Below are positions 18,178 to 59,639 of a DNA stretch of 64,000 nt, one piece after another. Below the pieces are notes generated by a model. The model saw nothing but the letters and a program-made list of their open reading frames with translations, searched no databases and was not told the DNA's origin. How positions within the stretch are numbered: the stretch's first letter is position 1; each line of letters starts with the position of its first letter. The translations under genes were made by a program, and so were the position numbers. The DNA comes from Paramacrobiotus metropolitanus. Its lineage: Eukaryota > Tardigrada > Eutardigrada > Parachela > Macrobiotidae. The stretch spans positions 248,001 through 312,000 of the forward strand of contig NW_026570294.1 of the NCBI RefSeq assembly GCF_019649055.1, written 5' to 3'.

Positions 18178-19757
18178 AAAGCGTTGTGCAAAAGAATGTA
18201 TTTTCTTTTTTGACTGGTGACCGTAATCGTAATGCGTAATGCATTTTGACCACCTCTTCACGCTCTGCAGCACTTCTGTTTCATTAGTTTGCTAATGTTT
18301 TCGTACAAAGCTTAGATCGATCATCTTGAATCTTTAATTCCAGTCCAGAACGTACTGTAGTTCCAAATAAATGGTATACCGCAAAAGAAACGCATGTGAG
18401 GAGGAGTGCCTGGAGTGGCCTCTCCGTTCACCCGCGCACAGGCGGCTGCTAGGTTGTTTTGCTGTTTTTGCCGTGTTTTTCTCCATCTACCAGATTCTAA
18501 ATCTGGTAGATTCTTCAGTTGCTAGATTTCGTCGTCTGAGCTGGATGCTTTTTCCTTTTCGCCCCGCAGCAAGGTGCTGCGGTGGCCTTTGATGTGTTGT
18601 ATGTGAGAGCGATAAAGTGTGCAGTGTGTTGGCGTTCAGTTTCCGTTTCTGTTCGCGCACAGGGGTGAACTAGCCGTTCATCTCCTGTTAGACGCAGATA
18701 AAACTTTTGCAATGCCATCACTCAGAGATTGCTTCTTTACTATTAACCTGGTCGAAGCTGCATTTATTGTCGTAGCCAAAAGGTCACCATTTTGCCTTTT
18801 CCCTGTAGAGCAGCAAGTCTTGTTCACGTACGTATGTATCCTTTGCTCACGTAGCTATCCGCCACAAGTCTTATCAGCGGTTACAGTTTGACTACGATTT
18901 CAGAACAAGGTTTGCACAGGATTTTCTGTCAACATTATTGCGAATATCGGCCCGGTATACGGATCAATTCAGTGCATCTTGACAGCTGTTGCAGTTGCAT
19001 ATGTATTGTACATTATCTTTCACCGTTAACCGATGCACTTGTAGTTGCTTACGTACTTTGATCATTATAGGGCCACGTGATTCAAATTCAAAACCGCTAA
19101 TCTGGTCCAGTAAGTTTTTGGTAGTCTCGCTCACATGAATTTTTGAAGCTGAAACCAGAACCGTGAAGACGAATTTTTAACTGTGTAAGATTTTTTCGTA
19201 AGTCGTAATACATGTGCATATAACATAAGTAATTTAGTAGGTAGAGATACAACATCCAAGGAGTGCCAAAACTCTACGGCACAGGAGGTGAATGAAAGAC
19301 GCATCCAGCGTATGATACCATAACAAATTACGCTATATAAACTCCTGTAGATTAATACAACCTGTAAATTAGCGACCATGTTGAAAACTTTGTGAAAAAT
19401 TTCAACAAAAAACATACGAGGACATTTGAGAAAGTTAGAACACTTAAAAGCATAACTATTTCTTACTGTTTACGCGGTAAAATAATCATTAATTCTGTGC
19501 GTACGACGTACGTATTTACGCTAAACTTTCCTTACCGGCACCTTGAGTTTCCATTCGACTGGCCGTATTGATTGTGTCTCTGAACCTGCCGACGACAACC
19601 AATTGAATTAATTTAATTACAACATCTAACTGCTAAGTTTAAAATGAGTTTTTAAGATCTGTCTTGAGTCGTCGTAAGTTCAAAAACTGGAAACTTTTTT
19701 TTCATTTTAAACCACACCTAGAGTCGTAGACGTCCTGATGTAAGTTGCAGTTATATA
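17270..19757. repeat. Segmental duplication, left unit (LRR-B + GC0 3' end)
   Basis: Matches 24460-26520 in the same orientation: LRR exon, its 3' flank with AATAAA, and GC exons 22, 21 and 20 with their introns. The left unit has about 340 bp (18372-18715) not seen in the right unit. The right unit has a deletion of about 270 bp inside the LRR exon. Confidence 0.8.
18764..19585 (-). pseudogene. GC0: receptor guanylate cyclase remnant, last three exons only
   Basis: Exon 20 (19536-19585), exon 21 (19057-19148) and exon 22 (18764-18802) have exactly the lengths and phases of the full copies. They encode the end of the cyclase domain: FRDTINTASRMETQG, SKIHVSETTKNLLDQI and GKGKMVTFWLRQ-stop. 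The usual glycine of FGDT is arginine here. All upstream exons are missing. At about 19757 the sequence switches directly to the region that lies upstream of GC1 (compare 32337 onward), so an internal deletion of the other exons is implied. Splice sites remain intact but no start codon can be linked to these exons. Confidence 0.88.
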
Positions 19758-19951
19758 ACACATTACAAAATATATTTATATTTTTCCCGTTCGCATGCTA
19801 GCGTTTCTCAGTTTCTCGTGCTCGTAGACGTTTCACTGAAAAAGACACGTAATATTTAGTTAGATCACGTCTCAAAACAGCAGATTATTGATTAATTCTT
19901 GGTACAATCAAGAAACTGGTTAACTCTTTCCACGTCAATAAGAACTGATAT
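19757..19951. other. GC upstream-region homology joined to the GC0 3' end
   Basis: Closely matches about 32337-32525, upstream of GC1 (CATTACAAAATAT, TTTCTCGTGCTCGTAGACGT, AAGAAACTGGTTAACTCTTT). Related sequence occurs near 34560-34690 and 44340-44600. It probably represents the promoter-proximal part of the ancestral duplicated GC unit. Confidence 0.7.
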
Positions 19952-20185
19952 CCAAAAAATTCTTTGTGATCTTTTTTAATCTCCTTTCCATAATTTTTTT
20001 GGCGCACAGGTGATTTTTTGGGAGCTGCCACGGGGGTTGTTTTTGTACCATACTTGATTCGATTTGGCAGGGATTTGTTTTTCTGCAGATCGTTGACCGC
20101 GGTTGCATTAAATTCAGAAAAATTTTCCTCTGCACTGTGTTTTCCTGCGCAGTATCGAGAAAGAATGACGCCAATCATGTTTCCT
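19952..20185. repeat. Dispersed repeat, copy 2
   Basis: Second copy of the repeat at 6961-7195. It interrupts the GC upstream-region homology, which in the GC1 counterpart continues without it near 32530, so it looks inserted here. Confidence 0.7.
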
Positions 20186-24459: not shown

Positions 24460-25085
24460 CCATAACATCAGTGTTCCGCCGCTCCCTTCCTTCCGAACGA
24501 GTAGTCTAACGGTCGAAGAAAGCCGGGCATATGCATTGCTACCCTGTGGACAATTTTTCATGCCGGCAAACTGCCGAATTTGCTGGCATTGAATCTGCGG
24601 AACGGACGAGATTTGGTGATCAAGCGGGGGCATTTTTTTGGCCTTGGCAATTTACGAATGATCACGTTTGGCTACTTCACGATTCAGGAGATGGAGCCGT
24701 ACACGTTCACGGACCTGGTCCATCTGCAGAGTTTGTCTGTCACTAGAGCACGGTTTAGCCCTCAATCTCTTTGAATTATCACATGAGACATTGCGTCAGT
24801 CCATAGATCCCTATACGTCCAAAGAAAATGACCTGGAAAAGTCAAACGGCTCCATTGTGATTGTTCTTTCGCCTGGTATCGCAACTTTCTCAAGCGGAGT
24901 CCGCACTTAACTGAGCCAAGGGATACAGGAGACGTGTTTGCCATCGGCAATTACATGAGCAACGCCTTTAACAACGGGTGCTTTATGCGATCTCTAAGCG
25001 TGGAGTTCACTGGTGTTGGATCACAGGATTCTGTCATCGGAGGCGAGAGAGTATTCATATTACACGTCGTGCTATAGTCTAACAT
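24460..25085 (+). pseudogene. Secreted LRR protein gene, copy C (internally deleted)
   Basis: Homology to copy B starts near 24460 but the signal-peptide exon is absent. After about 24549 some 270 bp are missing relative to B, joining the exon start to the FHAGKLPNLLALNLRNG region. The LRR part (LVIKRGHFFGLGNLRMITFGYF, LQSL) is followed by frame breaks near 24745 and 24838. The cap region (CDCSFAWYRNFLKR) and the stretch DTGDVFAIGNYM are visible in shifted frames. AATAAA at about 25268 matches the signal after copy B. Tail to tail with the GC1 3' end. Confidence 0.75.
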
Positions 25086-26520
25086 GTTAAAAGCGTTGTG
25101 CAAAAATATGTAGTTTCTTTTTTAACTGGTGACCGTAATTTGTAATGCATGTTGACCACATCTTCACGCTCTGCAGCATCTCTGTCACAGAGTTTCATTA
25201 GTTTGCCCATGTTCCCATACAAAGCGATAGTTCGATAATCTTGAATTCCAGAACGTACTGTAGTTCCAAATAAATAGTATACCGCAAGTATTATCCAAGA
25301 AACAAACTCAAGTCTTCGAAGACGTTATGAGTTGCTTTGAGGTGTCATACGGTCCGCATTCAAAAAGACTTCAAACTATAAAGGACATTTCAGAAAAGTA
25401 CCATTGTACCACGCAAAACAGACACGCAAAAAAATTTTACAGTGCGATCACTCAGAGATTGTTTCGTTACTATCAACCCCGACGAATCTGCATTTATTGT
25501 CGTAGCCAAAAGGTCACCATTTCGCCTTTTCCCTGTAAGGCAACCAGTGTTATTCACGTACGTATCCTTTGTTCACGTAGCTATCCGTTACAAGCCTTAT
25601 CAGCGGTTACAATTAGAAAGACATTGACTAAGATTTCTGAACAAGGTTTACATAAGATTTTCTGTCAACATTATTGCGAAGATCGGTCTGGTGTACAATC
25701 AATTCAGTGCATCTTGACAGCTGTTGCAGTTGCATATTTGCATTATCTTTCGCCGTTAACCGATGTGCTCGTACTCGTAGTTGCTTACGTACCTTGATCA
25801 TTATAGAGCCACGTGATTCAAATTCAAAACCACCAATCTGGTCCAGCAAGTTTTTGGTAGTCTCGCTCACATGGATTTTTGAAGCTGAAACCAGAACCGT
25901 GAAAACGATTTTTTCACTGTGTTCGATTTCTCGTAATTTATGTGCATATACTGTAATACGAGTAATTTAGTAGTTATATAGAGATACAGCATCAAAGGAT
26001 ATCAAAAGACTACGGAAAAGGAATCAAATGAAAGACGCACCCAGGCGTATGATATCGTAACAAATTACGCTATGATAAACGTTGCAGATTACTGTGTTCG
26101 ATTGCAGATTTATACAACCTGTAAATTAGAGACCAGGTTGAAAATTTTGTGAACAATTTCAACATAAAACATACGAGAACATTTGAGCACATGAGTACAC
26201 TTAAGAAGCCTAACTGTTTCCTTTTATTTACGCGGTAAAATACCCATAGTTATTAATTATTGTGTGCGTACGTATTTACGCTAACTCTTCCTTACCGGCG
26301 CCTTGAGATTCCATTCGACTAGCCGTATTGATCGTGTCCCCGAACCTTCCGACGACAACCAAACGAATAAATTTTAATTGTTAACCTTAATTGCTAAGCT
26401 TAAAATCAGTCTTTTTCAAGTTCTATCCTGGGTCGGCGTAAGTAAGTGCAAAAAATTGGAAACCTTTTTTAATTTTAAACCACACGTAGAGTCGTAGACG
26501 TCCTCTTATGATTTGTAGTT
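24460..26520. repeat. Segmental duplication, right unit (LRR-C + GC1 3' end)
   Basis: Counterpart of 17270-19757. Homology ends inside GC1 intron 19 near 26515, just where GC0 switches to upstream-region sequence. Confidence 0.8.
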
Positions 26521-29500
26521 ATGTAACTTATATTTTAAGACTGTGGGAGGCACTCACAGGCAATATCGGGGCATTCTTAATCCAACAACACCGGCTGCAC
26601 AGTAACCTAGACAAAAGCCCGTATTAGCTTGTCCGGCAATCGGGTACTGACGTAAACCACGATCCGAATGTACCTGAATGTATACCAACACGCAGTTGCA
26701 GCCGTTCTGTTGGATCGATTGGCGAAGGGATGCTCTCCGCGGCCTGCAGCATCGATAGCGTCATCCGTGCTATTTCGCCCGCATGACGGCTACCGTTGGG
26801 TATTGGCAGGCCGCTGGCTAACTGACACCCGAGCGAACAATATTAGGCAACACGGTGCCATGCAACATAGTTTCTTGTAAATTATTTAGTACCAGATATG
26901 AGTCGCCGATGGTCTCCACTTTGTATACGTCGAATCGGGGGAGAATCGAATCGAAGACGCTGTACACGGCGTTCAGCAGAACGATCGTCTGCAGTGGAGC
27001 ACACTGGACAACGACCGATCCAAACTGGGGAATATCGCTGAACGACAAGGTTACACACTCAAAGTATTCCGCCACCACAGTGTGTTTGTTGCGTAAACTA
27101 TTGACCACCAACCTGTAAAACTAACGAACGTTGTATTGTTGCGCGTTCATGCGCACGACTAATGAAACTATTTACTCTGGTAGCATTTCCCGTAATAACG
27201 AGTCCACTTTACTCCGCTCATCCACCAACTGCCGAGTACGAGCCTCCACCAGATCCTCTAAATGACTGGAGTACATATCCAGTCGCGGAAGAATTAGATC
27301 AATCATCTTCTTGCACGGGATGACTTGACTCAAGATTTCGGTAAAGCGCGGCATTGTCGGTCGTTCAAGGTGGTTGTTGGCAGTGCATGCATCAACAATG
27401 TGATGCAGTTCCGCCGGTAGTTTGGATGTATCCACGATGCGGATAACGGTTGGGTCCTTACGTAGCACGGCAACGTTTTCTACAAATAAAAGTTGGCATT
27501 CTACTGCAGTGCGGCAATCAGGATCAAAGTTAAAAAAATCAGTTGAGTGTGCCATTTCTGGCAATAAAGTATCACAAAAAATATGAGATATGCTGGTATA
27601 CGGTAGCCGCCCGAAGCAAAGCTAATATCCGTGAGGAAAACGCGATATCTTTCGATTAAAGTGATCAGTCTTCGAGTTTAGCACGCTTAGTATAGCAGAC
27701 GCTGGCTTCGCTTCGGCTGTTTTTTTAGTAGGTGCACTGCTCTGTAAGTTGATGACCATTCATGCGTTTTCATTGAACAATCTCGTTACCCTGTACGCTG
27801 TCGACACTCGCAAAATTGGTCTGCATGGGTGCCCGTCCGGTGAAGATTTCGCTGATGACCACACCCAAACTGTACATGTCGCTTTCTTTCGTGACCTTCA
27901 CGGATGCCCCGCTAATGATCTCCGGTGCGGCCCACAGTACACTGGGATCAAGTGGCAGTTCGGCGGGAAAGATGCTTCCATACAGCTTCCCTCGGAATTT
28001 TGATAGCGCGTACGACGATATTTTCAGGCAAAACCGTTGATCAATCATAATGATGATGCTGGATAAGGCCCCGTGATACTGGAGTGAAGAGCGGTGCAAA
28101 TATTTTAACCCCTGTAAAAGCAGCAGCCGTTTTTATGAGCGAAAACGCTGTACCCAGCGGACTGCATGCAGTCACGGCAGTACATGCACTATTTCCCAGA
28201 TCATGGAGCTCTTCAGGGTGTGGTCCATGTGGATGGGTTCGTTCTGGATCAGCAGTCTTAACGTATCGCGCGCACCGTAGTCGAATACCATGTAGGAATA
28301 CGCGGGACTGCTACTGGTCGCGATACCGACAAATCTGTTCACATTCTCGTGCTGCAGAAACCTTGTCTAATAAAACGGTAATTTCTTGAAATACTTCTAC
28401 ACAACGGTTATAGCCTCTACAAAAGATTATATTTCTTTACCGCATAGAGAACGTTGCGGAAGGTTGCTTGCTCTAGGATTTGGTGCACTGACAAGCATTT
28501 CCCATAAAAGGGCTCGATAGTAACCGACTGACCATGGTGCAATCGTCGGTTAGTGCAAACACTAAGTTCTGCTTCGGGAAGGCGCTGTCGCACCATGATC
28601 CAAGCTGGTCCGGGATTGGACAGCGGCTGAAGGTCTGTGTAATGCAACTGCCACCACGGTGATTTGTTGGACATTTTATTTGAGAACTTCCTAGGAATGA
28701 TCGTCGTCATTTACGATTTTAGCGCACAAGACACATGATGAAAAAGCTTTTCGTGTTACCAGTAGAGCGCAGTGGTCAGTCCAATGCAGATTATGACTGC
28801 TACCGCCACTAGCACCCCGGAGATAATTAATGTTTGCGCTACAAGAAGGACAGAGTACTAAAATTCTAATTGAGAGTTGAGGATAGTGACGTACCATTAA
28901 ACACAGTAGAATAAATTACTGCACAAATTTACAAATTTGAAAAATATTCATTTCGAAACGCCTTACTATTGCTGGTTGCGCAAAGGTCATTCCGGTATCC
29001 ACACTGTGGGACGTCAGGTGGGGGGCCGTCTTTGCTCTTCCATGTGTGTGCTAATTTTGGAGAAACTTCACGCAAGACGGATGATGCGAAGTCATAGAGC
29101 CATGTATCCTGTTAAAAAATTCGAAACCAAAACGAGGTAAAACAAATCCGTTACTGACAGGACTGTCGTGCACTTGGTACAGTATCTACTGTAATCTCCA
29201 GCACTCTTGCCTCCAAAACGCCAGAATCGACATTAAGTCGTTGATAAACGGCATCGTTCATTCGCATTCCGTTTTCGTTGATGAAGAAGTTGCGGAAGCA
29301 TGGATTAAATGATCGATTATAAAATCTTCTAGCAAAACTGGTTCCGGTCAAGGTGTTGATGTCAGCCCGCAGTTCAAGAAAAACCTACGAAAACTTAAAA
29401 CTGAAGGAAACCTCACAAAGATACGGGTTATTGCTTACCTGGGCAAAGGCAAGCACCGATTCATAACCGGAAATGGCCAGATCATTGAGCTGTAAACAAA

Positions 29501-31951
29501 AGAGCGACTTTTGCTAAATTACAAAATCATAATTATTATTATTACCTGCTCGTTGCGTGATACTGAGCGATTGTAACGATCGAGCGAATTATTCTTAGCT
29601 TCCTCCAGTATGTCGCTGATAAGTTCCCATTTTGGATTTGGGTTTTGGAAACTAATAAGCGATTGGAAGCCATCGAAGGCTGCCTAAATCCAAGCGCAAC
29701 CGAATGGAAGTAAATACGTAGAGAATGCAATGGTATGTGGCTGAAAGCGGTTAACCAATAATCTCTGGAGCTTACTTCGTCGTTGTCATCAAGAAACTGC
29801 CACAGAATTTCCGTCATGCCAGGCACTCGAGTGGTTTGAAAAGTGAAGAATATCTGTAGCAGGTGATATACAAAGTGCAGTCAGAAAATGTACTAAGCGT
29901 CCAGTTCATTTCATATTCTCTAAAAATACGACAGTCTGAAGATGATGCGATGAAACTAGGTCATATGTTGATGAAAAAACCGTAATCAGTACATTAATGG
30001 TACAGTACATCAGCGTCCAGAAAAACATAAAAAGTCCCAGCGCGCTGTTAGTTTTCTCGGATTATCAGTATGTACTACACACGAGAATACAATGCCATAC
30101 ATACATAGTCGCCATTGGTCATGTTCAACCTCTTCGCTGTAACCTGGTAATGATAACAACACAGTGGAACTGGGATAAACTCAGCCACAGCAATCGCTTC
30201 TAAGGCTTACCATGATGTCGCGAACGATGCGCGGATGAGCACAGATCACCTGCACTACCGTTGCCAAGAATAAACAAAAACCATGATTATTAATTTATCA
30301 TAAAGTTTGTGGAAGGGGCAGTAAACTAAAGAACCTGATGCTGGCTTAAAGGTTTATAACTTTATATTCGTTAAGTTGGGCCCACCTCGGCTTTGATCTT
30401 GTACTCTGCTGAGTAATGTGGCATAGTCAAGGGTTTTTACTGAGTCGAATTCCAGTTTGTTCGTGAGGAATTTAGTCGTAGTCGATCCATCCAGAAATCG
30501 CTTTATATTACGGCAAGCTACCATATAGAACGTGCTCAGAGCCTGGAATTGCGAGGGCGCATCGCACAGAAGCGTGATGGTGCGCCAGCGGTATCTGCCC
30601 AAAAACAGCTGGAAGCTCACGAATGTTGCTACTTCGTCAGAGGAAGTGAAGCTCATCACGGTTGGATAGCGCTGCTTGTCGCTAAGTGCCCCATCGCTCG
30701 ATGACCTAAAGAGAATGTTAATGCAACTGCAATCGATTTACTCGTGTTTTACAGTGAAGCGGGCTGCAGTATCTCGATGATCATTACCACTTCGTTTCCG
30801 TATTTTCATGATAAATTGGGAAATAGATAAGTTTGGAAATAGAAAATGATAAGTTTGGAAATAAGCGAGATGCACTTACGATGCAAAAAGAGGGATATCC
30901 CATTCTGTAACACAGATTCATAGTATTGTTATGGAAATTTTCGGATTCTGTAGGGTGGAATATGGTAATTACCAGATAATCACGTCATTAACAATCAGTT
31001 CAAAGACTAAGTTCTTGCAGATTAACGATGCCGGTTCATACACGGTAAGATAACCATTTTTTTAATAGAAAATTCTCAGTAGTACACCTATTACTCTGTG
31101 AGTTAAAAAAACCAATCTTCAAGAAAAGAAATCGCTTTCAAGAAAACGAAGAAACCCAACATACAACAACCGTATAGAAGAAACAATCATAAAGATTTGC
31201 ACGAATGTACAGATACAGATCAGCTTACCTCGAGCAAAATCTCCCAGAGCCACTATTTCCAAACTGCACCCTGCAATAAAATATGGTAAGATACGAAAAA
31301 TTCCTGGATTCGAAGAGCGGTATGTACAAAGTAACCCTTACATTTTGTAGCATTGAAAACCTGCCAGATGGCATAAGATAATATTAATTTTGTTAAAATA
31401 GCGATTTGAACCTCGCCGTGCAAATCAATAACGCGCAAAAATTTGCATACTGTAAAATGGCAGGTTCACTTTTTTAACGAGCCAGATAGCTCGGCTGTCC
31501 AGCAAATCATTCTGTATACATACTACAGTATTGTATGATTCTGTAGAGCATATACATGTTAATCCGCATATTCGTCGTGAACAAAATCTGTGGCACAGTT
31601 ACCGGGAGAAAACATGACTGTAAAGCTGTTCGGATATCGTTGGACAGCTTCGTAGATCTTATCCGATAAGGCAGGAACTAATGCTGCCCCATCGGCACAG
31701 CTGAGAGCACCAGGCTCATGAATTATCGTTCTGGACATATTGGCAAATGTTGTCGGATAGTCGTGCTGCAGTCGCTTAAAGGCCACATCTAACGTCGGTC
31801 CAACGGCATAGTAGCTGAATGGAGTCATGTCTCCGATTAGAATAGTGATGGCATGGATATGCATCTGATTCGGATTGTCAAATTTCACACAAAGGAAAAG
31901 CGGCAGAAGGTGTAGCGATAAGGTCAACCCATAAAAGAGTAAGTGCATCAT
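25494..31951 (-). CDS. GC1: natriuretic-peptide-type receptor guanylate cyclase, intact
   Basis: Twenty-two exons (coding order): 31603-31951, 31229-31270, 30880-30904, 30386-30705, 30211-30254, 30105-30143, 29776-29853, 29546-29683, 29439-29489, 29205-29384, 28967-29108, 28760-28838, 28441-28690, 28184-28366, 27790-28111, 27176-27479, 26893-27112, 26674-26821, 26558-26606, 26296-26345, 25793-25884, 25494-25532. All phases agree; about 1,047 aa. Layout: signal peptide, ANF-receptor ligand-binding ectodomain to about residue 469 (LGDFAR, DKQRYPTVMSF, GPPPDVPQCGY), one membrane helix (SGVLVAVAVIICIGL), kinase-homology domain to about 747 without HRD/DFG catalysis (VLWAAPEII, SDMYSLGVVISEIF), a coiled linker, and a cyclase domain. 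Catalytic features are present: both metal aspartates (SFSDI, TIGDSYL), guanine-selecting glutamate (KVETIGD) and cysteine (MPRYC), and NTASRM. It would convert GTP to cGMP at the plasma membrane. It is the only fully intact copy in the array. Confidence 0.93.
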
Positions 31952-33835: not shown

Positions 33836-34086
33836 TAACAGCGTTTACGCAAAAGTTTTGGCGAGACGGCAGTCATGCTACTTAATGTGCATGCTGGAAT
33901 CCTCACCCGACTGAACAATCAGCAACTACCGTTGCCGTTCCTAGCACAAAACAGAGAGAATTCAGCGGAAAAGAGAAATCCGCGAATTATGATACACGAT
34001 ACGCCCCGTTCTGACAGCATTTGAGTAGAAATACAAGCATAGTTGGCAGAGTAAACTTTTTCTCTGCTTTCTTTTTGATTGCATCG

Positions 34087-44702: not shown

Positions 44703-44848
44703 AGAAACGATCGCCTGCAGGGGAGCGCACTGGACGATGATCGGCTCAAGCTGGGGAATGTCCTGAACGGCAAGGTCACACAGTCAAAGTGTTTAACGGC
44801 GACGTTGTGTTTGTTGCGTAATCCTCCGGTAATCGGTTGACTGCTCAC
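44703..44848 (-). pseudogene. Orphan fragment of guanylate cyclase exon 17
   Basis: Matches the first part of the cyclase-domain exon (LRNKHNVAVKHFDCVTL) and then loses frame in the metal-binding motif, which is reduced by a one-base loss. The acceptor-side intron is also partly preserved. No neighbouring GC exons remain in correct order, so this is a relic of a further lost copy. Confidence 0.75.
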
Positions 44849-45397
44849 CTCCAACAGCGAACAGCGTCTAATGTCCCGCGTTTGCTCTTGAGCAAAGATG
44901 CAGTATAGATGCAGTTATTGGTATTCATGAATGAAAGATGCAGTATACATAAAACTGAAATTAATCGGTACATACACAAGCGGAATTTTCGTGACGTCAG
45001 CACAAGGTGCAGTGATAATGATTTTATACTGTATTCAACTCTGGCATACTGAGAGATCCCATGCTGACATGAGATGTCACGTACTTTAACACGCTGATCA
45101 TATCGCCCATCACAACAGGGGAGCGGTGGCGGGAGCGGTAGCTGCGCAGGCCGAACTCTGAGAAATATTGCAGTATTACCAAGAATACCGATTTTGTCCG
45201 CTGGGCTTCGAGACTCTCGGTTCCCTGGACCGAAAGATTTCCGCATGATCGCGTAACAAAGACGAGAGATTCGTCCGGAAACTGGCGAGAAACAAGCGAA
45301 TGGAGTAAAACGGCATGGAAACTTAACGAGGTATCGCGGCAGCTGTTCTGGGAACTGTTGGGCGAAATTTGAGCACACTAACGCATCTGCTGCCGCA

Positions 45398-45432: not shown

Positions 45433-45683
45433 ACTACAATTGCATAAGTTTACAGAGGCCTACGTTTCACTTGTGCTCTGAAGTTTCATTTTCATTAGCT
45501 ACTCGAGTAGGTATATAGTGCGTTTAATTCACGAAAACTGGTCGCTAAGTTTATCCAATTCTTTGTGCACATGTGTCACTTACACCGCGACAGCGCAGCC
45601 GCACATGTAAGTACTATCAGTGTATAACCATCTCAACGCTGAAGCTACTGTTTTTGCAAAATCAGCACCACCGAATATTAAGT

Positions 45684-48600
45684 CTAATGCAACAGCCAAA
45701 AGGTCACCATTTCCCCTTTTCCCTGTAAAAACAACAACCAGTCCTTGCGTATAAGCCACAAATCTTTTCAAATTGTAACTATTAATTTTATATTTACATT
45801 CAGAATAATGACTACGATTTTACGAACAAGGCGACAAAGCCTTTTGGTCCAACATTACTACGAACAACTTTATACAGGTCCATTTACATTAGCCTGCGTC
45901 ATGAATAGCATCTGCTGCGATTGTCGAATTTGTAAAATCATCAGACAGTTCAAGTTGCTCCTGTTCGGTATTGATAAGTTGTTTAAGTATTAATCAGTTG
46001 GTTTCTTTACCTTAATGATAACAGCACCCCGTGACTCTGTTTCAAAACCGCCAATCTGGTCTAGCAAATGCTTCGTAGTTCCGCTAACATGGATTCTTGA
46101 AGCTGAAACCAAGTCAAACTTCAAATAAGTCTCGCTAAAAGGTGGAAAAGAACTCCAGAGCATACAAGGCAGATACCGGAATACTACTCGCTACCGCTTT
46201 CGCGCACAGCAGACAAATAGCCAAAAACGCTGATGATTTGTTTCTGCTTCTACGACTAGCCTTGAACGTTTTGCGATACGTTTCAATATAAATGTAAATG
46301 ACCAATTCAATCCGGTAGTTGCAGAAAGTGAAACTATCAACCTATATTTCAGTTTCCCAGATTTAGTGTTTCCTGATATTTTTCCTAACTTACCGGCACC
46401 GTACGTTTCCATTCGGTTGGCCGTGTTAATTGTGTCTCCAAACCTGCAAATGTGAACGGCATTAAACTTTGATTTGTGCTGTTTAGACTTAAACGCATCT
46501 GCAGTCTTAAAATTCGTTCTACATCATTAAAACGGAAAATGATGAAATCCTTGGTTCTGATTTGACCCGTGCATAACCGCTTATTTAATTTTAACTTGAT
46601 AGAAAAACGGTTTTACTGACAAGCAGTAGCGTGGCATTTTTAGGCCCACAACGCCGGCTGCGCAGTGACCTGCAGAAAAATCCGCATTAACTTAATAATT
46701 TTTTAAATCTGTTAAACATAATATTTCCGATGAAATCGCTACCCGAGTGTATGCCAACACGCAGTCGCAGTCCTTCTGCCGGTTCCATCGGCGAGTGGAT
46801 GCTCTCCGCGGCCTGCAGCATAGTCAGCGTCATCCGCGCTATTTCGCCCGCATGCCGAATACCGTTGCGTTTCGGCAGGCCGCTGGCTAACTGTCACACG
46901 AATAAGAAACACTCTGTCAATACTCATTACTTAGAACGGCTGCATTGTAAAAACGTAAGTACTAGATATGAGGCGCCGATGGTCTCCACTTTGTAGACAT
47001 CAAATCGCGGCAGAATCGAGTCGAAGACGCTGTACACCGTGTTGAGAAGAGCGATCGTCTGCAGCGGAGGACATTGAGCGACGATCCGCTCAAATTGAGG
47101 GATATCGCTGAACGATAAGGTCACGCACTCAAAGTGTTCCGCGGCGACAATGTGTTTGTTGCGTAATTGGTTGACTACCGTCCTACAACAATGTCGAGGG
47201 CTCCGTTGACGCGTTTGCTCTTGAACAAATATTTTATACAAACACAAGTATAATTCACGAGCGTAAACATCTTACTCGGGCAGCATTTCCCGTAATAACG
47301 AGTCCACTTTACTCCTCTCGTCCATTAGCTGACGCGCACGAACTTCAACCAGATCCTCTAAATGACCGGAGTACTGATCCAGTCGGCTTGTAACCAAATC
47401 GAGCATCTTTTTGCACGGGATGACCTGACTTAATGCCGCGGCAAAGCCGGTCATAGTCGGCCGTTCCAGTTGGTTGATGGAAATGCACGAATCAACAATG
47501 CCGACCAGTTCCGCTGGCATTTCTGACGTATCCTCAATGCGAGTGACATTTGGATTCTTACGTAGTACGGCAACGTTTTCTATTAACAGCATTCGGTAAT
47601 GCTTTGTGGGCACTCTGTAGTGCAGTAAGCCGGTACATACTCGGGAACATGTACGAACTAGTGTACATGTACATGGTACCAGACTCGGGTACATGTACGC
47701 AAACTTGCGCTTTCGCGCACTCTCAGACATTGGTTTGCGCTGTTTTATGGCATTCTATAGCCAAAATAATGATTCATATAAACTGGAACAAAACACCATT
47801 GTGCGCGCAAAATCCGGTTGCGAAGATACTGGTTAAAGATTCCCACAGTTTAAACGCATGGAGGTGTCCCAAGAGTCTTATTATGCACTACTCCTCTTCA
47901 AATTTTGCATGCAAACGCACAACACCATGAACGGTTTTTGCACCAAATTATTTTCCCACCATGTTTTCCAAATTTTGACATGAATTTCAAAATACCGCGC
48001 TTCCAGGGAGAAGATGGCTGTACGGGTTGAAAAAGGAGACGAGGCCACTATTCAGCCATGATTACGATTACCATAATCGAGAAACACCAGTTCACTGTGC
48101 GGCCAGATCGCAGGCCTATTTAACATATAAATATACTGGATCGTCCGGTACGCACGTAAGAAGGACGAAAAGTAAATAATTTAGAAATAAAATGGGCAGC
48201 TTCCGGTAAATCTGCGCAGTCATGCTGCCCTTATGGGTAGCTTGTCAGAGCAGATAGCCACAACCTGTTCCACCGCTAAGACAACGTTCATCCGCTCTAA
48301 TAATTAGACTTATTTACACCTCCGTGCGTTTAAAATTTTGGAATAATATTGCACCGATATCTCCACAACCAGATGTTCCTTGCACCAAACGCTTTTAAGC
48401 CAGTGTGTAAAATTATTTGGCTATAGCATGTCCTATAGCAAGGTATAGTCCTAAAACATTGAAAAAAGTGTTTGGGAGTGCGCAAAAAGTAAAGCACATG
48501 TACACGTACTGGTACAATGTACCGGCACATGTCCCTTAACCAGTACAATCGATTCGTATACTATACTAATTTATACTAGGAAAGTGCACCGCTGTTGGCT

Positions 48601-51600
48601 AGCACTGAAAGACCGAAGCGAAGCGGGAAACAAAATTAAATAAACACTTTAGGAGATTCATTTTTTTTTAATTTCCCGTTTTCATTTATTATTTTTTGTG
48701 TTCATTAAATATAGTTTTTAACACTATTTATGAATTTTATTAAAAAATGAAGGCGTGACCGACGTGACCGACAAAAGTCCCGTTTTCTTGAACATAGAGG
48801 ACCTTCGCTTCGCTTCGGTCGACAAGTATACTAATTTTATACAGTCAAAAACGCAAGGTATAGTCAAGAATGGCACTTGCAGATGTACTAGAACAGTTTG
48901 TACACAATGTGAAAAAGCGTGCACGTAGTACGTACCGTGTACGCTGTCAGTAATCGCAAAATTCGTTTGCAAGGGTGTCCGACTGGTGAAGATTTCGCTG
49001 ATGATGACACCCAGACTGTACATATCGCTCTCTTTCGTGGCCTTTATGGATGCCCCGGAAATGACTTCCGGTGCGGCCCACAATATGCTGGGATCTAGTG
49101 GCAGCTCTGTGGGGTAAACGCTTCCATATAATTTTCCTCTAAATTTCGCCACTGCGTACGACGAAATTTTCAAGCAGAAGCGTTTGTCTATCATAATGCC
49201 TAGGCTTGATAGGTTTCCGTGATAATGCAGCATAGAGCGATGCAGATATCGTAATCCCTGTACAAAGATTCTGGTGCTAGTAATAAGATTACCGTAGAAA
49301 AAGGTTAAATATTGCTTGGTACATGCACGATTTCCCAAATCGTTATCGTCTTGAAGGCATGATCCATGTAGATGGGTTCACTCTGAATCAACATGAGGAG
49401 CGTATCGCGAGCGCCATACTCAAAAACCATACAGGAACCGGCAGGCATCACACATGCTTTAGTGGCCGTGATGCCGATAAATTTGTTTAGATTCTGATGA
49501 TGCAGATTTCTCATCTAATAAGAAAGACGTTTTAGCAACATACTCCAGGCTGAAATCAACAACGGTTGCATGCACATTGAGTTTTACCTGTTGCAGAACA
49601 CTGCGGAAAGTTACTTGCGCTAGGATTTGCTCTACTGTCAAGCACTTTCCATAAAAAGATTCGATTACAACTGCCTGACCGCAGTATAAGCGTCGGTTAA
49701 TGCCGACACTGATTTCGGTTGCGGCATGCAGTTGTCGTAAAAGGACACCAGCTGGTCCAAGATCGGAATATGGCTGCAGGTCAGTGGAAGGTAAGTACCA
49801 CCATGTTGACTTGTTGAACTTTTCATTTGAGCGCTTCCTGTAAAAAATTGCTGTAATACTTAGCAGGAGCTTAGCTGCTATTATGGAGAAAGGAAGCGCT
49901 TGATGAAATCACCAATAAACCGTAGAAATCAACCCGATACAGACAATGACCGCTATCGCCGCTACAATTCCGGTAACTGTTCTTGGCGCTGCAATGCAAC
50001 AGTGCATACTAATTACGTAAAACTCGGAAAGGTATGTAGTACTAATTTTTTAAAATGGTGGACACTGGGCTGTCGTTCAGGCTAAGGCAGTTGACTGAGA
50101 TTTGCTTTGGTAGTTAACGCACTACTTTGCCGTAACTGTAAGCTTGATACGGTAAACGTATGCGGTGTTGCGCATGTCGTATGAAAGTAAGGTTACTTCG
50201 TTTCCAGTAAGTGCATTCAACCACAATTACGAGCACGCTTTCAGACAAACTTTAAAATTAGTAGCATTCAAGAGCGTTATTTTTATTCTGGGGGTATGGA
50301 CCAGTTTCGGGCGTATCGACCCTATTGTTTCTGTTATAATTCAGCGTGTTTTTCCGGGTGATTGTTTATTGCGTTTTTGATTTGACCAACAAAGTGCAAT
50401 CAACCAAATTAATTTTAGTATTATTAATTTTTTAAATCAAACCATTTTCGGAAACGCCTTACTAGTGCTGGCGGTGCAAAGGTTGTTGTGGAATCCACAC
50501 TGCGGCACGTCAGGTGGAGGACCATCTCTGCTCTTCCAGCTGTTCGCTAATTTAGGGGAAAATTCTCTTATGTTGGATGAAAAGGAGTCGTAATGCCATG
50601 CATCCTGTCGAAAATCGGAGTCACATAAGTAGGTTTATGTTAATAACCATGTTACGCAAAGTGTTAATTAAAAGCTGTGAAGACTCCATTTAGGGTGTGT
50701 CGAGCCTCTTGCCTCAAAAACGCCGGTATCGGTGTTAAATCGATGATACACAACATCGTTCAAGCGCATTCCGTTTTCATTTATTGTGAAATTACGGAAG
50801 CATACATTAAACAATCGATTGTAGAATCGCTTCACAAAACTGATTCCGGTTAGGACGTTGGCATCTCCCAGCAAAGCTTCTTCCATAACCTATGAAACGT
50901 TAAAAGTTGGTTTTCGTAAAATCTGTTGAAACAGAGCTGTTGTCTTACGCGAGCAAACACAATCACCGATTCATAACCCGCAATGGCCAGATCCTTGCGC
51001 TGCAAAATAAAGAGCGCGTTCAGCAATCGTACTAAATCATAATTATTATGGTAATATGATACCTGTTCATTCCGAGAGACTGAACGGTTGTAACGTTCGA
51101 ACGAAATATTCTGGGCTTTTTCCAGTACATCGCTGATAAGTTCCCATCTTGGATTTGGGTTTTGGAAATTTATCAGTGATTGGAAGCCATCAAATGCTGC
51201 CTAATTCGATACGCCAGCGAACATCAACTTATTTATTATGATGTATGTACACCAAAAGCATCTGACAGAAACCGGCAGCCCAATGTACAGTATTCCCACA
51301 GGGCCACAGCTGTAGCTCACTTCGTCGTTGCCATCGAAAAACTGCCACAGAAGTTCCGTTTGACCTGGCACCAGTGTGGTTTGCACAGTGAAGAATATCT
51401 GTAGCGATTAATTTAAACATCCCGGTCAGTACTACATTTTTACGTCCAACGCTTTCGATGATTTCCAAGATAAAGTGAAAGTGTATTAGATTAAATTAAA
51501 ATTGTCAAAAGGCTCAAAACGTAACTCTTAGTGTTGATACAATAAAGTAGTATCATCGTCCAGATGTGTAAGTGCAAATGACAGAAATTAAGTCGTGCTC

Positions 51601-53733
51601 AATCGGCACAAACAGGTATTACTCAGCGTTTTCAGCGTTATTTTTAAGGAAAGAAAAATATTTTTTATATATATAACGTACATAATCGCCATTGGTCATG
51701 TTTAGACGATTTGCTGTCACCTGTCGATGACAAAAACAGCGCAATATACTAGAGACGAAAGAGGCAGAAATAATTCATGAAGTTTTACCATAATATCGCG
51801 AACAACACGCGGATGGGCGATGATTACTCCCACTATCAGGGTCAAAAAGCAGACAGAAACCATAATCATCAGCAATTACCAATTACCAGTATTCTAAATT
51901 TTAATTAACAATGTGTCACTGTTCGACCCACCTCGGCTTTGATTCTGCATTCGAGTCAGTGGTGCTGTGTAGTCTTGGCTTTCTCTGGAGTTGAATTCCA
52001 GTTTGTTTGTGAGATATTTGGTCATCGTCGATCCATCGAGAGACTGCTTTAAATCCAGGCAGACTATCACGTAGAACGCGCCGTTTTGCTTGAACTGCGA
52101 GGGCGATTCGCACAAAAGCGTAATAGTGCTCCAGCGGTATTTGTCTAATAACAACTTAAAGCTGCGGAACGTTGCTACTCCATCATTCGATGCAAAGCTC
52201 AATAGTGTTGGATAACGGTGTTTGTCGGCAAGTCTACCATCACTCGCTGAGCTGAACAAGATGAAGCTGTTGATGCATGTGTAGGTATGTTTTAATCTGC
52301 TGCATTTTTAACGCGAGTCAGCGCATCGGTTAAAACTGCGGCTTCTCTCCTCAAGACTTGCAAATCCATTTCTCAGATTCTTATAATACTCAATGGGCTT
52401 TTGTGGGCTTCTTTCAGTTTTTGGTATCAAATACAAAAAAAAGTAGACATCTATTTGTTTATATGTAGTACAAGAACGTCCCTTACGTAATGCACTGATT
52501 AGCTCTACAATTTTTGTAATTTGTAAAAATGGGCTTACGACGCAATTAGAGGAATATCCCATTCTGCAAGACAGAATGATACACATTGTGATGAAATTCT
52601 ATGAATATGAAATATGTGTCAAATTCAGTGATAAAGGTAGTACTCGGAAATCAATCGCAGTTGCTCATATTGTTTGTCTGATAAAGAGCAAACATTTCAG
52701 ATAAAGCACACCCTTGTGAAACTATGGAGAGAAGTAGGGTGCAAGTAATAATCTAGAAAACATGAAGTTTCGCTGCATTCCGGTAACTGTATACGCGAAC
52801 TTGCCTCGAGCAAAATGTCCAAGATTTAACATCTCCATGCTGCATCCTGTAATGAAATCTGGTAAGATGCGAGAAATTCTTGAAGTTGGTGTGGGGGCGG
52901 CATTCGAATACAGAGTAACTATCAGGTAATTAATTTGACAAAAACTTAAAAAAACACTTTGGTTTTTATCATATTTCGATGTTGTGCGTATACATTTTCA
53001 GAAACGAGTCACCCGCCTATTAGAATTTCTAAAAACATATTTTAAAGTTTTCAGAATCGATGCTTTTATCGGGAAAAAACATCGCTGGGAAAATAAAACA
53101 TCGCTGGGAAAAAACATCGCTGGGAAAAGTTCATTCATTAACTGTGCAGATCATCGTCGGTAGGTTCTGGTGGAAAAACTTACGGTTAGTAAAACGAGAA
53201 TACTCAAGAACGGAAAACCCAAGACCATACACAAGAGCGTGCGCTATACAGATCTGTATACGCGATCTGCAATCTGCACTGTTTTCAAACCAACCGGATT
53301 AAGACTAAGGGCATACTTCTACAGCAGTTTCCTGGAGGCATATGGTACTTTTCGTTTACAAAACTATGAAGCGAACGTTACCAGGGGAAAACATGACCGT
53401 AAAGCTGTTAGAATATCGCTTGATGGCTTGGTAGATCGGTTCCGATAATTCCGGCATTAAGGCCGCGCCATCAGCACAGCTGAGTACTCCAGGGTAATGA
53501 ATTGTGGTTCTCGACATGTTGGCAAAGGTCGTCGGATAGTCCTGCTGCACCTGCTCGAAGGCCACGTCTAATGCCGGTCCAACTTCGTAATAACTGAATG
53601 CAGTAGTGTCCCCGACCAAAATAGTTATGGCATGTATGTGCGTTTGATTGGAGACGCCATCTGTCCGGCTAGAGGAACTCAGCACAATATAGATATAAAA
53701 CGAAAAAGTCAGTCCATAAACCGGCAAATGCAT
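45684..53733 (-). CDS. GC3: receptor guanylate cyclase with a lost metal-binding aspartate and one damaged splice donor
   Basis: Exons in coding order: 53382-53733, 52805-52846, 52539-52563, 51932-52251, 51789-51832, 51682-51720, 51321-51398, 51063-51200, 50949-50999, 50707-50889, 50463-50604, 49913-49988, 49588-49837, 49323-49514, 48936-49257, 47276-47579, 46963-47182, 46743-46890, 46621-46669, 46394-46443, 46011-46102, 45684-45722. All are open; about 1,051 aa if joined. The ectodomain, membrane helix (VTGIVAAIAVIVCIGL), kinase-homology and cyclase domains are all present. The second catalytic metal ligand is changed: VETIGASYL instead of VETIGDSYL (codon 46972-46974). Exon 2 uses a GC donor (GAG|GCAAGT). 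The exon 10 donor, AGA|GTGCT in GC1 and GC2, has lost its T here. The product is predicted to be catalytically weak or dead; it might act as a dimer partner or binding receptor, or the gene is an early pseudogene. Confidence 0.85.
47620..48560. mobile_element. Long inverted-repeat element in GC3 intron 15
   Basis: Arms of roughly 200-270 bp (about 47640-47890 and 48290-48550) are imperfect inverted copies. Shared blocks include CTATAGCCAAA, TTTAAACGCA-GGAGGTGT, TGCGCACTC and GGTAC-rich tips. The centre is about 400 bp with no coding sequence. GC1 and GC2 have introns of only about 310-335 bp at this place, so the element arrived after the copies separated. Confidence 0.65.
48609..48820. repeat. 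Inverted-repeat segment with GACCGAAGCGAAGCG ends
   Basis: Perfect 15-bp ends: GACCGAAGCGAAGCG at 48609-48623 and its reverse complement at 48806-48820. The end with its flank (CGAAGGTCCTCTAT) recurs in inverted form at about 15058-15090. Related CTTCGCTTCG motifs occur in the same intron of GC1 (27705) and GC2 (39265). Probably a dispersed small element. Confidence 0.55.
53080..53130. repeat. Short tandem repeat in GC3 intron 1
   Basis: Three tandem copies of ACATCGCTGGGAAAA with 2-3 variable bases between them. Confidence 0.75.
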
Positions 53734-55337
53734 GGTGGTGGAATGAGCACAGATATCATAACGCTGGCATCAAAACGTTGCCGATGATAATGATAAATGT
53801 GCAAGTACGTTTTAGGTACAAATAAATTGCATCCTGGCTCAGCTAATTATCATTGAACCTGGTTGTCGAATATGAACCTCGAGCTCATGACAAACCACAC
53901 GAACTATGTAAGTACTATTCGGAATAGTATTGTATTCTGCAACAGCAGCCAAACGATCGAGATTGCATCACCGCCTACCTTCCCCTGCCGTGAGGGACGC
54001 ACAAGAAATCAGGTGAATTCAGAATAAGGATGTCAATGGCATTTCACCTGTCGCTCGTTTTTATCTGGTCATCACGGTGATACCGATTGACGCAGGAGTT
54101 TCCATTACCGAGTTTCCATTACTCTCGACCCGGCAAATGCGGATCCATATGACCTGTCATTACCCGGTACCGATAATTATTTTAACCGTCGGGGTGGCAA
54201 AGGTGGGCGAAATTTCCTCCGGTAAAAATTACACAATATCCATTTCATTTTTGTGCTACCCGTAGCTCTGCTCAGCATGTTTTAAATGACATCCCTAAAC
54301 TCCTGCGTCCGTCGAACTGGCGGTGCACGTGGAGAATCTTTCGAGGGCAAGTTGCTCTGCAGTTGCACTGCTTAGGCGATCGAGCTGCACTACAGGAGGT
54401 TGGACGTGGTAAATGCCCGATCGGCCTACAACAATCACAGCCGCCTAATTCCCAAGACACGAAGAACGCATTACGGTACCAGGACAAGGATATCGAGTTC
54501 ACCCACCCGGTTCGGGTTAACCTCGAGTTACCCCCTGGCGTGTGGCGGTGGGCACATCATAAAAGTTACAGCTGATGCAGCAGTGATTGCAATGTCACGT
54601 AATTTTCTAACTGAAATTCTTAATTTGTTTGGCTTTTTCTGAATAAGATTTCTTAGAGAATTGTTGTTTGATTTTAGTGGTGGTTTTGTGGAGATCTGTA
54701 AGTGCAACACCCAACGTTGATGCGGTAGGCCTGTTTTTTTCACGATGTTGTGGTAAACAGATTTGTCTTGTTTTTAGTCTTTCATGTGACATTTTTATTG
54801 GAAAAACATATATGTTAACGGCAGTAATGATGTTTTTTTTAAGTTGCGGTGACTAATAGGCAAAGTACGATGTTGGTGTTTGTTTTTTTTCTGAATCACA
54901 CTAGTATTGATTTGTTAATATTTATTTATTTTTATTTATTTTCTCAATCTACAGTATTTTTGTGCATTTTGCCGCTAGGACACACCTTTGCCGTCTCGGT
55001 CTTCTCTTGCAGTATGTTGTTATTCTGGCTTTTTAATTCAAATTCTTTCCAGTATGTATTCTCGTTGCCATTATTAATGTGTTCCTGTTACAGCCTCGTA
55101 GATTCGTTATGTAGGTCGGAAAAGTATTTTGCCACTTTTCTGCTACCTTGCATATATTTATTACAGATCTTGTATTGTGGGCATATGCCTGCTCTTCGCA
55201 GTTTTTCCTGATCATGGATGAGAAATTATTAATTAAACTGAAATTCCATTACACGAGTAGCTGCGAGCCTACAATCAACCGTCATCATTAATTTGATATG
55301 TTTAAATTGGTCATGCACAAGGATCATAGTGTGAGTT
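53734..55337. other. Upstream region of GC3 and spacer
   Basis: GC-upstream homology is weak but visible to about 54260, including a local duplication of GAGTTTCCATTAC near 54108. 54290-54560 has raised G+C and partial open frames on both strands but no recognisable domain. 54570-55330 is A+T-rich with nothing called. Confidence 0.4.
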
Positions 55338-55983: not shown

Positions 55984-56111
55984 CATCACAACAAGAATTC
56001 CGTGACCTCTACAGAGACCGTGACCTCTACCTCTGTATTTTAAAGAGATTTTGCCAGCTGGTAAAACGAACTAATCCAACTTTAATCAAACGCTTTGAAG
56101 CAGCCGTCATT

Positions 56112-57226: not shown

Positions 57227-57506
57227 TAGATCATTTCGTCTTCCCTGCTCGGGTAACCACCTTGCATTAAGTGCAAACGCACTACGAGCTGCTCATTCCA
57301 AACTCACTAAATCAAATCAAAGATGCGTTTATTGATTTTCTTGAAGTTTCTTTACATCCGAAATATGTTGTCACGGTCCACGGACACAGGAAACTGTAGG
57401 AACTGATGTTTATACAGCTTTCAAACTGTGACATGGCGCAGCATTGGCATACAACGCTGAAGTTCTTGCTTTTGCTTTTCCCCTATCAGCACGAACGAAA
57501 ATGTAA
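57227..57506. other. Convergent spacer between the PAN gene and GC4
   Basis: About 280 bp between the stop codons of two tail-to-tail genes; no other feature seen. Confidence 0.4.
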
Positions 57507-59639
57507 TTAATGCAATAGCCAAAAGGTCACCATTTCTCCCTTTCCCTGTAAAAACAACCAGTCTAAGTGTACACGCCATGTCTTACCTTCTGACTGTATG
57601 ACTTATGAAGAATACACGCATGCACATTCAACATAATAACAGCTGTTCTGTATGGTAAGGCACAAAAAAACATTTCGGGCCAACATTTTTACACACAATT
57701 ATTATTACTTATGCATTGCACTGGGAACAGTACGCACCTGGCAGTTACTGCAATTTCCAGAATTACATTACTAGAATTATCAGGGTTCTCAAGCTGCTTA
57801 CAGTACTTCCAGTATTAACCAGCTGCTTTCTTTACCTTGATGAAAATAGTCCCCCTTGTTTCTGTTTTAAAACCGCCAATCTGGTCCAACAAGTGCTTGG
57901 TAGTTCCGCTAACATGGATTCTTGAAGCTGAAACCAAACCTTTAACTTAAAATAATTCCGGTTAAAAGTCAAAAACGAACTGCTAAGCATAAAAGTTTAG
58001 TAAGAACCGCCCTCTGTTCGCAGACAGGCACAGCTCGCTACGATTTTACGCAGATCAAGGCGTTTATCCAAACAACTCCGATAATTCGTTCGGACTTGTA
58101 GCCTTAAAAGTTTTGCGACATCAAAATAAATGGAAATGGTCGATCCAATCGTTGCAGAAATGGAAAGTAAAATTATTAACCTGACATTCGAATTTTCCCT
58201 AAACTAACCGGCACCATGCGTTTCCATTCGACTAGCCGTATTAATTGTGTCTCCGAACCTGCAAAGTGCAAACGGCACAATATATGTATTGTTTGAACAA
58301 ACTCATTCATAAACCTAAAACCTAATTCTACATCAATAAAACAAAAAGGCAAGGCTTTTTTTGTTTAACTCGTGCGTATCCGCTTCTTTAACTTAAGATA
58401 AGAAAACGGTTTTACTCACAAGCAGTACCGCGGCATTTTTAACCCCACAACGCCGGCTGCACAGTGACCTACAGCAAAATGCGCAATGACTTAAACGTTT
58501 AAAAACTAAAACTGCGCTAAACGTTTAAATTTGCTAATGGATGCAGTTTAAATAATGCAGATTAAGTCGTTACCAGAGTGTATGCCAACACGCAGTCGCA
58601 GGCGTTCTGCCGGATCGATTGGCGAATGTATGCTCTCCGAGGCTTGCAGCATCGACAGCGTCATCCGCGCTATTTCACCGGCATGCCGACTCCCGTTACG
58701 TGTTGGCAAGCCGCTGGCTAACTGTCACAGGAGCATATATTTAACACTTTGCGAACCTTACCATTTTACTAGTATGCAGTGAAAGGCGAAGTACTAGATA
58801 TGAGTCGCCGATGGTCTCTACTTTGTAGACGTCGAATCGCGGCAGAATGGAGTCAAAGACGGTGTACAGGATATTCAGCAGAGCGATAGTCTGCAGCAGG
58901 GCACACTGACCGACAATCGGTCCAAACTGGGGAATATCGCTGAACAACAAGGTCACACAGTCAAAGTGTTCCGCCGTCACAGTGCGCTTGTTGCGTAAAT
59001 GATTGACTACCGACCTACAACAACGACGAACGCTTTCTGTCGCGTGCGACTCTTGAACAAATATTTTCACGACAATAAGCGCTTTACTCTGGCAACATTT
59101 CCCGCAGTAACGAGTCCACTTTACTCTGCTCGTCCATTAGCTGACGCGCACTTTGACCAGATCCTCTAAATGACTTTTACCAGATCCTCTAAATGACCAG
59201 AGTACTGATCCAACCGGCTTATAACCAGATCGATCATCTTCTTGCACGGGACGATCTGACTCAATGCCTCGGTAAAGCCGGACGCTCTAGTTGGTTGTTG
59301 GCAATACATGAATTAACAATGTCGCGCAGTTCGGCTGGTATTTTTGACGTATACTCAATGCGAGTAACATCGGGATCCTTACGTAGTGCGGCAACGTTTT
59401 CTACAAACAACATCCCTTATTGCACTGCTCTTCAGTACAATCCATGTACAATGGATGGTGCATTTTATTATGCAGCCGGAAATGCACAGTACGGTCAGAA
59501 TGGCATATCTAATACCGAAGTTATAGAACAATAATTTGTTTAAATTTTCTTACCTTGTACACTGTCGCTGATCGCCAAATTTGTTTGCATGGGTGTCTGA
59601 CCGGTGAAGATTTCGCTGATGATGATGCCCAGGCTGTAC
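57507..59639 (-). pseudogene. GC4: receptor guanylate cyclase 3' half, cut by an LTR retrotransposon
   Basis: Exons 22-17 are intact and in phase: 57507-57545, 57836-57927, 58209-58258, 58420-58468, 58574-58721, 58795-59014. All cyclase residues are present (LFSDI, VETIGDSYL, MPRYC, NTASRM). Ex16 (59088-59400) carries a loss of about 10 bases near 59283 and a local duplication of CCAGATCCTCTAAATGAC (near 59157 and 59182), so it is frame-shifted. Only the last part of exon 15 remains (about 59557-59639, YSLGIIISEIFTGQTPMQ). It stops exactly at the retrotransposon LTR. Exons 1-14, if they survive, lie beyond the element and outside the window. Confidence 0.88.

Follow-up and report, generated by a model that had tools for sequence, protein, structure and literature searches.

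A tandem array of receptor guanylate cyclases in the tardigrade Paramacrobiotus metropolitanus, part of a large family in which many members may act only as heterodimer halves

In a stretch of 64,000 bp from the tardigrade Paramacrobiotus metropolitanus (GCF_019649055.1, contig NW_026570294.1), we examined a tandem array of receptor guanylate cyclase genes. This stretch, hereafter the window, is C74:248001-312000 in a 169.8-Mb assembly of 533 contigs, where C-numbers are contig labels and L-numbers are loci. The array occupies roughly 18.7-59.6 kb of the window, and all of its copies are on the minus strand: GC1 (25501..31975), GC2 (35830..43929), GC3 (45634..53766), GC4, the 3' half of which is at 57510..59639, and a 3' fragment, GC0 (18681..19632). 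An earlier note on this DNA had described a same-strand array of about 41 kb, and the layout agrees with that description. When the window is compared with itself, the copies are 67-90% identical to each other at the DNA level, and the likeness of GC1 to GC2 is not due to chance, since it amounts to 77.7% identity over 4.2 kb with E = 0.

We compared exons by aligning GC1-GC4 with two relatives on contig C10 (L166 and L184), which gave 19 comparable segments with edges taken from the GC1 model; exon edges beyond the best-aligned segments are uncertain. Twelve of the 19 segments have the same length in GC1, GC2, and GC3 (44, 39, 84, 134, 51, 149, 250, 304, 235, 148, 49, and 50 bp), and because these lengths match across the three copies, lesions in them can be read. 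The earlier statement that exon lengths are conserved to the base holds for these 12 segments, and the claim of three copies with the same structure holds for GC1, GC2, and GC3. The 22 exons that had been assigned to them are plausible but not settled, as automatic models from the six copies give 22-29 exons, and the comparison therefore rests on the 19 segments. A gene model built from three copies over-predicted exons and was replaced by this comparison.

The modelled exons of GC1 and GC3 are free of frameshifts and stops; GC3 segments E1 and E22 do reach a stop, but past GC3's own modelled splice donor. GC1 retains all six catalytic residues that we scored, while in GC3 the second metal-binding Asp is replaced by Ala. 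In GC2, the kinase-homology exon E16 has lost 10 bp at about 39,456/39,455, and this deletion shifts the reading frame upstream of the cyclase domain. E5 of GC2 is 4 bp short at the 5' edge, and its E12 is followed by AT where GC1 and GC3 have a GT donor; these may be further lesions or model errors, and we softened the view that GC2 has a single lesion on their account. The intron between E19 and E20 of GC2 has grown to about 1.4 kb (36,834-38,219).

GC4 is a pseudogene with frame lesions in exons E1, E5, E8, E9, and E17, and its exon E16 is interrupted by a long terminal repeat (LTR) retroelement. The element covers 59640..64000 in the window and ends at 64,287 in window numbering, with TG...CA ends and a 4-bp target duplication, GTAC. 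Its LTRs (59,640-60,094 and 63,822-64,287, the second running across the window end) have 1 difference in 455 aligned sites plus 11 gap positions, and because they are nearly identical we read the element as very young. A gag-like frame within it (61167-61574, minus strand) matches Retrotrans_gag. The insertion is probably the youngest of the GC4 lesions. Behind the element, the 5' exons of GC4 continue outside the window in L005, from 64,288 to about 68,868 in window numbering, so we rejected a truncated GC4 in favor of a full-length pseudogene that has been split.

GC0 contains the last cyclase exons only, with stops and frame breaks, and the region 18,700-19,759 shares 80.5% identity with the GC1 3' end. 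Adjoining GC0 is a block (17636..18384) that is 81% identical to a second block (24552..25287) adjoining the 3' end of GC1, and the first of these overlaps a leucine-rich-repeat frame at 17,322-17,903. From their similarity we take the two blocks, together with GC0 and the GC1 3' end, to mark a local duplication. We found two orphan relics outside GC0, both on the minus strand: one of exon 1 at 33432..33844, with stops and frame breaks, and one of the cyclase core exon at 44682..44914, with frame breaks. The earlier note had counted at least three orphan exon relics and two truncated copies, GC0 and GC4; of the latter, only GC0 remains, as a 3' fragment. It had also described the array as being in all stages of decay, which is an apt description of GC0, GC2, GC4, and the two relics and does not extend to GC1 and GC3.

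The identification as receptor guanylate cyclases, made in the earlier note from the letters, is supported by Pfam: GC3 and the nearest relative on C10 (C10a) both match ANF_receptor, kinase-like, and Guanylate_cyc domains. The extracellular domain matches PF01094 (ANF_receptor) in the gene models of GC1 (3.1e-17), GC3 (3.1e-10), and C10a (3.4e-12); the kinase-homology domain matches PF07714 and PF00069 and aligns with NPR1; and the class III cyclase domain matches PF00211 in the GC3 and C10a models. The hydrophobic exon E13, lying between the extracellular and kinase-homology parts, is a candidate transmembrane segment. Guanine is specified by a Glu that is present in 157 of 158 core exons genome-wide and by a Cys present in all 33 loci whose distal exons we read. 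Among solved structures in the PDB, the nearest relatives of the kinase-homology and cyclase region are NPR1 and GC-C. The catalytic residue set is complete in the sequences of GC1, GC2, and GC4 and incomplete in GC3. As judged from its residues, this loss bars the term homodimeric enzyme for GC3 and not its membership in the family, because worm receptors without such residues are still classed among the receptor cyclases (PMC8045692, in excerpt).

Synonymous divergence (dS) between GC1 and GC2 rises from 0.26 in the extracellular exons through 0.42 in the kinase-homology exons to 0.61 in the cyclase exons. Both GC1-GC4 and GC3-GC4 have a dS of 0.55 in the cyclase exons, and in the extracellular exons the values are 1.03 and 0.56. 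Because the dS of the same pair varies between parts of the gene, the array copies have probably exchanged sequence and have a mosaic history. The ratio of nonsynonymous to synonymous divergence (dN/dS) is 0.13-0.28 in all six window pairs and in all three gene parts. Since this range includes the pairs with GC4, it suggests that constraint lasted long and that the decay of GC4 is comparatively recent. In the tree, GC1-GC4 form one group (support 0.96), which is joined by two C10 genes (0.98).

The earlier note had named collapsed or misassembled haplotypes of one or two genes as the finding that would overturn its account. That the copies are uncollapsed haplotypes or misassemblies appears extremely improbable to us, given that dS among the window copies is 0.26-1.12, that a 97% identity cut-off leaves 161 of 163 core windows across the genome distinct, and that among the window copies only GC4 has the retroelement. 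What can be said for this explanation is that two pairs of core exons among the 163 are nearly identical (at least 97%). One joins C474 with C65, and the other consists of two C1 loci at 1.328 and 1.347 Mb; the 18-kb C474 may be a haplotype contig left in the assembly. Local birth and death of copies, as the earlier note proposed, is supported by the tree, the lesions in the window, the divergence, and the presence of near-neighbor paralogues.

Genome-wide, we counted at least 201 cyclase core-exon loci, a third query having added loci to the at least 197 cyclase loci already found; the total takes in a few adenylyl and soluble cyclases that were not separated, such as the adenylyl-like L151. 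There are at least 149 kinase-homology loci, and among the matches listed 83 of these pair with a cyclase locus within 4 kb. Also among the matches listed, we merged 262 gene-like loci, of which 135 are in clusters (gaps <25 kb), with 76 of 85 cluster neighbors on the same strand. The window array is one of at least 50 clusters with two or more loci. Of 107 ANF_receptor exon matches, 57 precede, by up to 9 kb, a kinase-homology or cyclase locus on the same strand, and none of the 107 precedes one on the opposite strand. Likewise, among the best 150 kinase matches, a kinase-homology match lies upstream of at least 90 of the 201 core loci, with none on the opposite strand. For 50 of 158 core loci the closest paralogue is within 60 kb, compared with a mean of 1.1 and a maximum of 8 in 200 shuffles. 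The earlier note was silent on the size of this family, as it was on the splitting of GC4 by a mobile element and on the loss of metal-binding residues in GC3 and elsewhere.

In class III cyclases, two Asp residues bind the metals, a Glu and a Cys recognize guanine, and an Asn and an Arg stabilize the transition state. We obtained core exons for 159 of 165 selected loci (six were left out), and our residue survey covers the 158 of 163 core exons that aligned through all three proximal residues, with 5 left out; 38 of the 201 core loci (the six selected loci and 32 from the third query) entered the count by position and not through their residues. Of the 158, 112 keep the first Asp, 143 the second, and 157 the Glu. 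All three residues occur together in 98, at least one Asp is missing in 59, and the Glu is missing only in the adenylyl-cyclase-like L151, so that all 59 core exons lacking a metal-binding Asp have kept the guanine-binding Glu. GC3 belongs to these metal-less copies, with the Ala codon GCC at 46,972-46,974, where GC1, GC2, and GC4 encode Asp; it keeps the Glu, Cys, Asn, and Arg. As far as residues tell, GC3 presents the metal-site change inside an array in which its neighbor GC1 keeps the full set. The Gly preceding the second metal Asp (IGD) also varies, being Gly in 71 of the 158 core exons and Asn, Ser, Lys, Ala, or Arg in 81 others.

For 33 loci we also have the distal exons. Twelve are complete, and 19 are metal-less, all 19 of them with the Cys, Asn, and Arg in place. 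In L067 and L131, both on C6, both Asp are kept, and Gln and Lys replace the Asn and Arg. L131 has a kinase-homology domain upstream and is for this reason of the receptor type and not a soluble cyclase; for L067, upstream coverage reached only the end of that region. None of the 33 loci lacks both half-sites.

We favor the reading that this receptor family evolves by birth and death and that many of its members can function only as one half of a heterodimer, and we give it a probability of about 0.62. The family gains copies by tandem duplication and loses them to frameshifts, fragmentation, and transposon insertions. The active site would, as in other class III cyclases, be shared by two subunits, and because each site takes residues from both, the metal-less receptors, including GC3, would be inactive as homodimers. 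Beside a metal-competent partner, a metal-less receptor could supply the substrate-binding half of one complete site, and the family would then be a mix of homodimers and obligate heterodimers.

Several of our results bear on whether the metal-less copies are instead simply decaying pseudogenes. They are found mostly in clades, with some single, and parsimony gives 14 changes at the first Asp and 4 at the second; the groups are marked by the residue that replaces the first Asp (Ser, Tyr, His, or Ala/Gly/Cys) or by Ser in place of the second. Decay is frequent among the window copies (GC0, GC2, GC4, and the two relics), and the median dN/dS of three metal-less groups is somewhat raised: 0.21 for Ser at the first position (9 of 36 pairs usable), 0.26 for Tyr (2 of 10), and 0.33 for Ala/Gly/Cys (9 of 55), where the largest pair reaches 0.70. 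The first-position His group has a median of 0.06 (4 of 6 pairs) and the two second-position Ser groups have 0.03 (3 of 3) and 0.05 (2 of 3). One small metal-less group could not be measured (0 of 3 pairs), and L164, which is of the Tyr type, and several single metal-less loci fall outside the dN/dS groups. Metal-less clades have undergone further tandem duplication, for example on C68, and their remaining catalytic residues are intact. None of 163 core translations has a stop in the aligned part, although this is weak evidence, as a local alignment can end at a stop. If the three proximal residues could be lost equally, the probability that all 18 changes would hit an Asp and spare the Glu is 0.0007, a figure that comes from a tree of 60 residues with weak support and that counts every parsimony change as a loss. 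Overall we consider relaxation of the metal-less copies possible and free decay unlikely as judged from these ratios, and that the copies are mere pseudogenes strikes us as quite improbable. The run on C68 (137-359 kb) consists of metal-less receptor cyclases of the Ser type, and four more close matches on C68 were counted by position.

The main rival to the heterodimer reading is a silent or decoy receptor, that is, that the metal-less copies are pseudoenzymes outside catalysis, serving as decoy, clearance, or dominant-negative receptors that may silence active partners. The clearance receptor NPR3 is a precedent for such a role. In most of the metal-less loci that we fetched the kinase-homology and cyclase parts are still joined, and extracellular-domain matches are present where upstream DNA was included (L167 and L169); retention in clades and the low dN/dS of some metal-less groups would also fit a decoy. 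A pure decoy would, however, have no need for the Glu or for the Cys, Asn, and Arg, which are kept without exception in the metal-less copies surveyed above, and we regard this explanation as unlikely, though less so than decay.

Other observations weigh against our preference for heterodimer halves. The opposite half-site, with metals kept and Asn/Arg lost, was seen in only two neighboring C6 genes, and because Asn/Arg are lost in only those two, the lack of a double loss among 33 loci is uninformative by itself. Those 33 of 163 loci were chosen to take in metal-less groups and are not a random sample. Nine groups with both Asp have median dN/dS of 0.00-0.14, so the three metal-less groups at 0.21-0.33 are under less constraint, and all of these ratios come from up to 60 codons per locus, from tree groups picked by hand, and from few unsaturated pairs. 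Among the matches listed, 66 of the 149 kinase-homology loci have no cyclase locus within 4 kb. Single-base calls such as the GCC codon of GC3 depend on one assembly. The genome also has 7tm_7 matches of the gustatory-receptor type, 50 at E up to 0.01, not all of which reach the curated cut-off, and cyclic-nucleotide-binding domains, with 39 matches, are not similarly expanded.

The array may have a sensory or hormonal function, as the earlier note proposed from the birth-and-death cluster. By analogy with the GCY receptors of Caenorhabditis elegans, the varied extracellular domains might sense external chemicals or peptides, which we put forward more weakly than the heterodimer reading itself. 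Because 7tm_7 matches are present, chemoreception need not depend mainly on the receptor cyclases, and we dropped the idea that they are the only chemoreceptors. A more speculative extension, which we find doubtful, is a combinatorial system in which about 200 loci encode substrate-half and metal-half receptors (the latter including at least the two C6 genes); cyclic GMP would be made only in cells with matching halves, so that pairing would encode what is detected. The family could alternatively consist mainly of peptide-hormone receptors, eclosion-hormone or natriuretic-like, and not of environmental sensors. NPR1 is the nearest solved relative, and of 20 hormone-receptor genes that Hypsibius exemplaris expresses in its 3-day eggs and at no other stage, most are annotated as atrial natriuretic peptide receptors (PMC6925440, in excerpt). 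Against this, a family of about 200 loci would call for many ligands. Large and fast-evolving tandem families are also more typical of sensory receptors, and we think a mainly hormonal family rather doubtful too.

The window contains other features outside the array. Upstream of it, on the plus strand, Pfam matches identify a protein kinase frame and BTB/BACK and Kelch frames (5531-5956 and 7951-9367). A further plus-strand frame at 11589-12467 has a FLYWCH zinc finger and a MULE transposase domain and is flanked by short diverged repeats (10795-11022 and 13518-13785). Long open frames of 300 and 137 aa at 22361-23639 encode a protein that looks cysteine-rich by eye, and no Pfam match was found for these frames in the searched part, 22361-23263. 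Palindromic stretches, 77-94% self-complementary, are at 20700-20823, 56388-56593, and 60344-60411. Elsewhere in the genome, a SAHS1 query (PDB 5xn9) matched 14 exons with 33-64% identity, of which 13 lie in a SAHS-type tandem cluster at C3:446-467 kb and one on C78. SAHS proteins are not known outside the eutardigrades, and on these matches a nematode origin of the DNA, our first thought, gave way to a tardigrade one. A COX1 query had no match and so yielded no mitochondrial barcode. Lipocalin matches appeared by eye to be ordinary fatty-acid-binding proteins. Two of the five DM-domain matches in the genome are on C5, at 2.135 and 2.163 Mb, and published work, in excerpt, puts a DMRT pair of P. 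metropolitanus at about 1.96-2.37 Mb of scaffold 5, a match that agrees with this species.

Among the matches listed for the open-licence literature, we found no description of a receptor-cyclase expansion in tardigrades in titles and abstract openings. By term counts, the 2017 tardigrade genome paper uses neither guanylate nor guanylyl in its main text (PMC5531438), and a 2006 survey of the family reported that the nematode-specific genes lack homologues in tardigrade expressed sequence tags (PMC1435932, in excerpt). There is a hint that the expansion is older than P. metropolitanus, because most of the 20 egg-stage hormone receptors of Hypsibius are annotated as natriuretic peptide receptors (PMC6925440, in excerpt). 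If most core loci are genes, the idea of obligate heterodimers, for which the evidence so far is one tested worm pair and, in other receptors, missing residues, could be put to the test on dozens of half-enzymes of natural and repeated origin. Tardigrade biology would gain a large set of candidate sensors for chemicals, peptides, or water; hydrosensation in C. elegans uses a receptor cyclase and cyclic GMP (PMC4759535, in excerpt).

The closest known parallel is the GCY family of C. elegans, which has the same domain order as the tardigrade family and has likewise undergone lineage-specific tandem expansion, with 21 of 25 worm receptor cyclase genes in a nematode-specific clade (PMC1435932, in excerpt). 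The worm family has 27 genes and mammals have 7 receptor guanylate cyclase genes (PMC5225109, in excerpt), compared with at least 201 core-exon loci in the tardigrade, so if most of these loci are genes, the family is far larger than the nematode one. The class III cyclase site is formed by residues of two subunits, and the C. elegans receptors ODR-1 and DAF-11 are an obligate heterodimer in which each supplies essential catalytic residues to one site (PMC5225109, in excerpt). A number of other C. elegans receptor cyclases without GTP- or Mg-binding residues have been hypothesized to be heterodimers (PMC8045692, in excerpt). ODR-1/DAF-11 is one tested pair, whereas in the tardigrade 59 of 158 core exons are metal-less by sequence. 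NPR1 (GC-A) and GC-C resemble the tardigrade copies in having an extracellular ligand domain, a kinase-homology domain, and a cyclase domain, but in our alignment both keep the two metal Asp, unlike the metal-less copies. The C1 and C2 halves of adenylyl cyclase divide the site, one half with the metal site and the other with the transition-state residues, and the alpha and beta subunits of soluble guanylate cyclase are split in the same way. In our alignment, the first half of adenylyl cyclase 8 keeps the metal Asp and has Asp and Lys in place of Asn and Arg, and its second half has Ser at both metal positions and keeps Asn and Arg; as aligned, the residue losses of the tardigrade receptors follow the same division. 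Adenylyl and soluble guanylate cyclases have fixed partners, joined in a single chain in the former and present as one alpha with one beta subunit in the latter, whereas the tardigrade has many receptor paralogues, each with its own extracellular domain.

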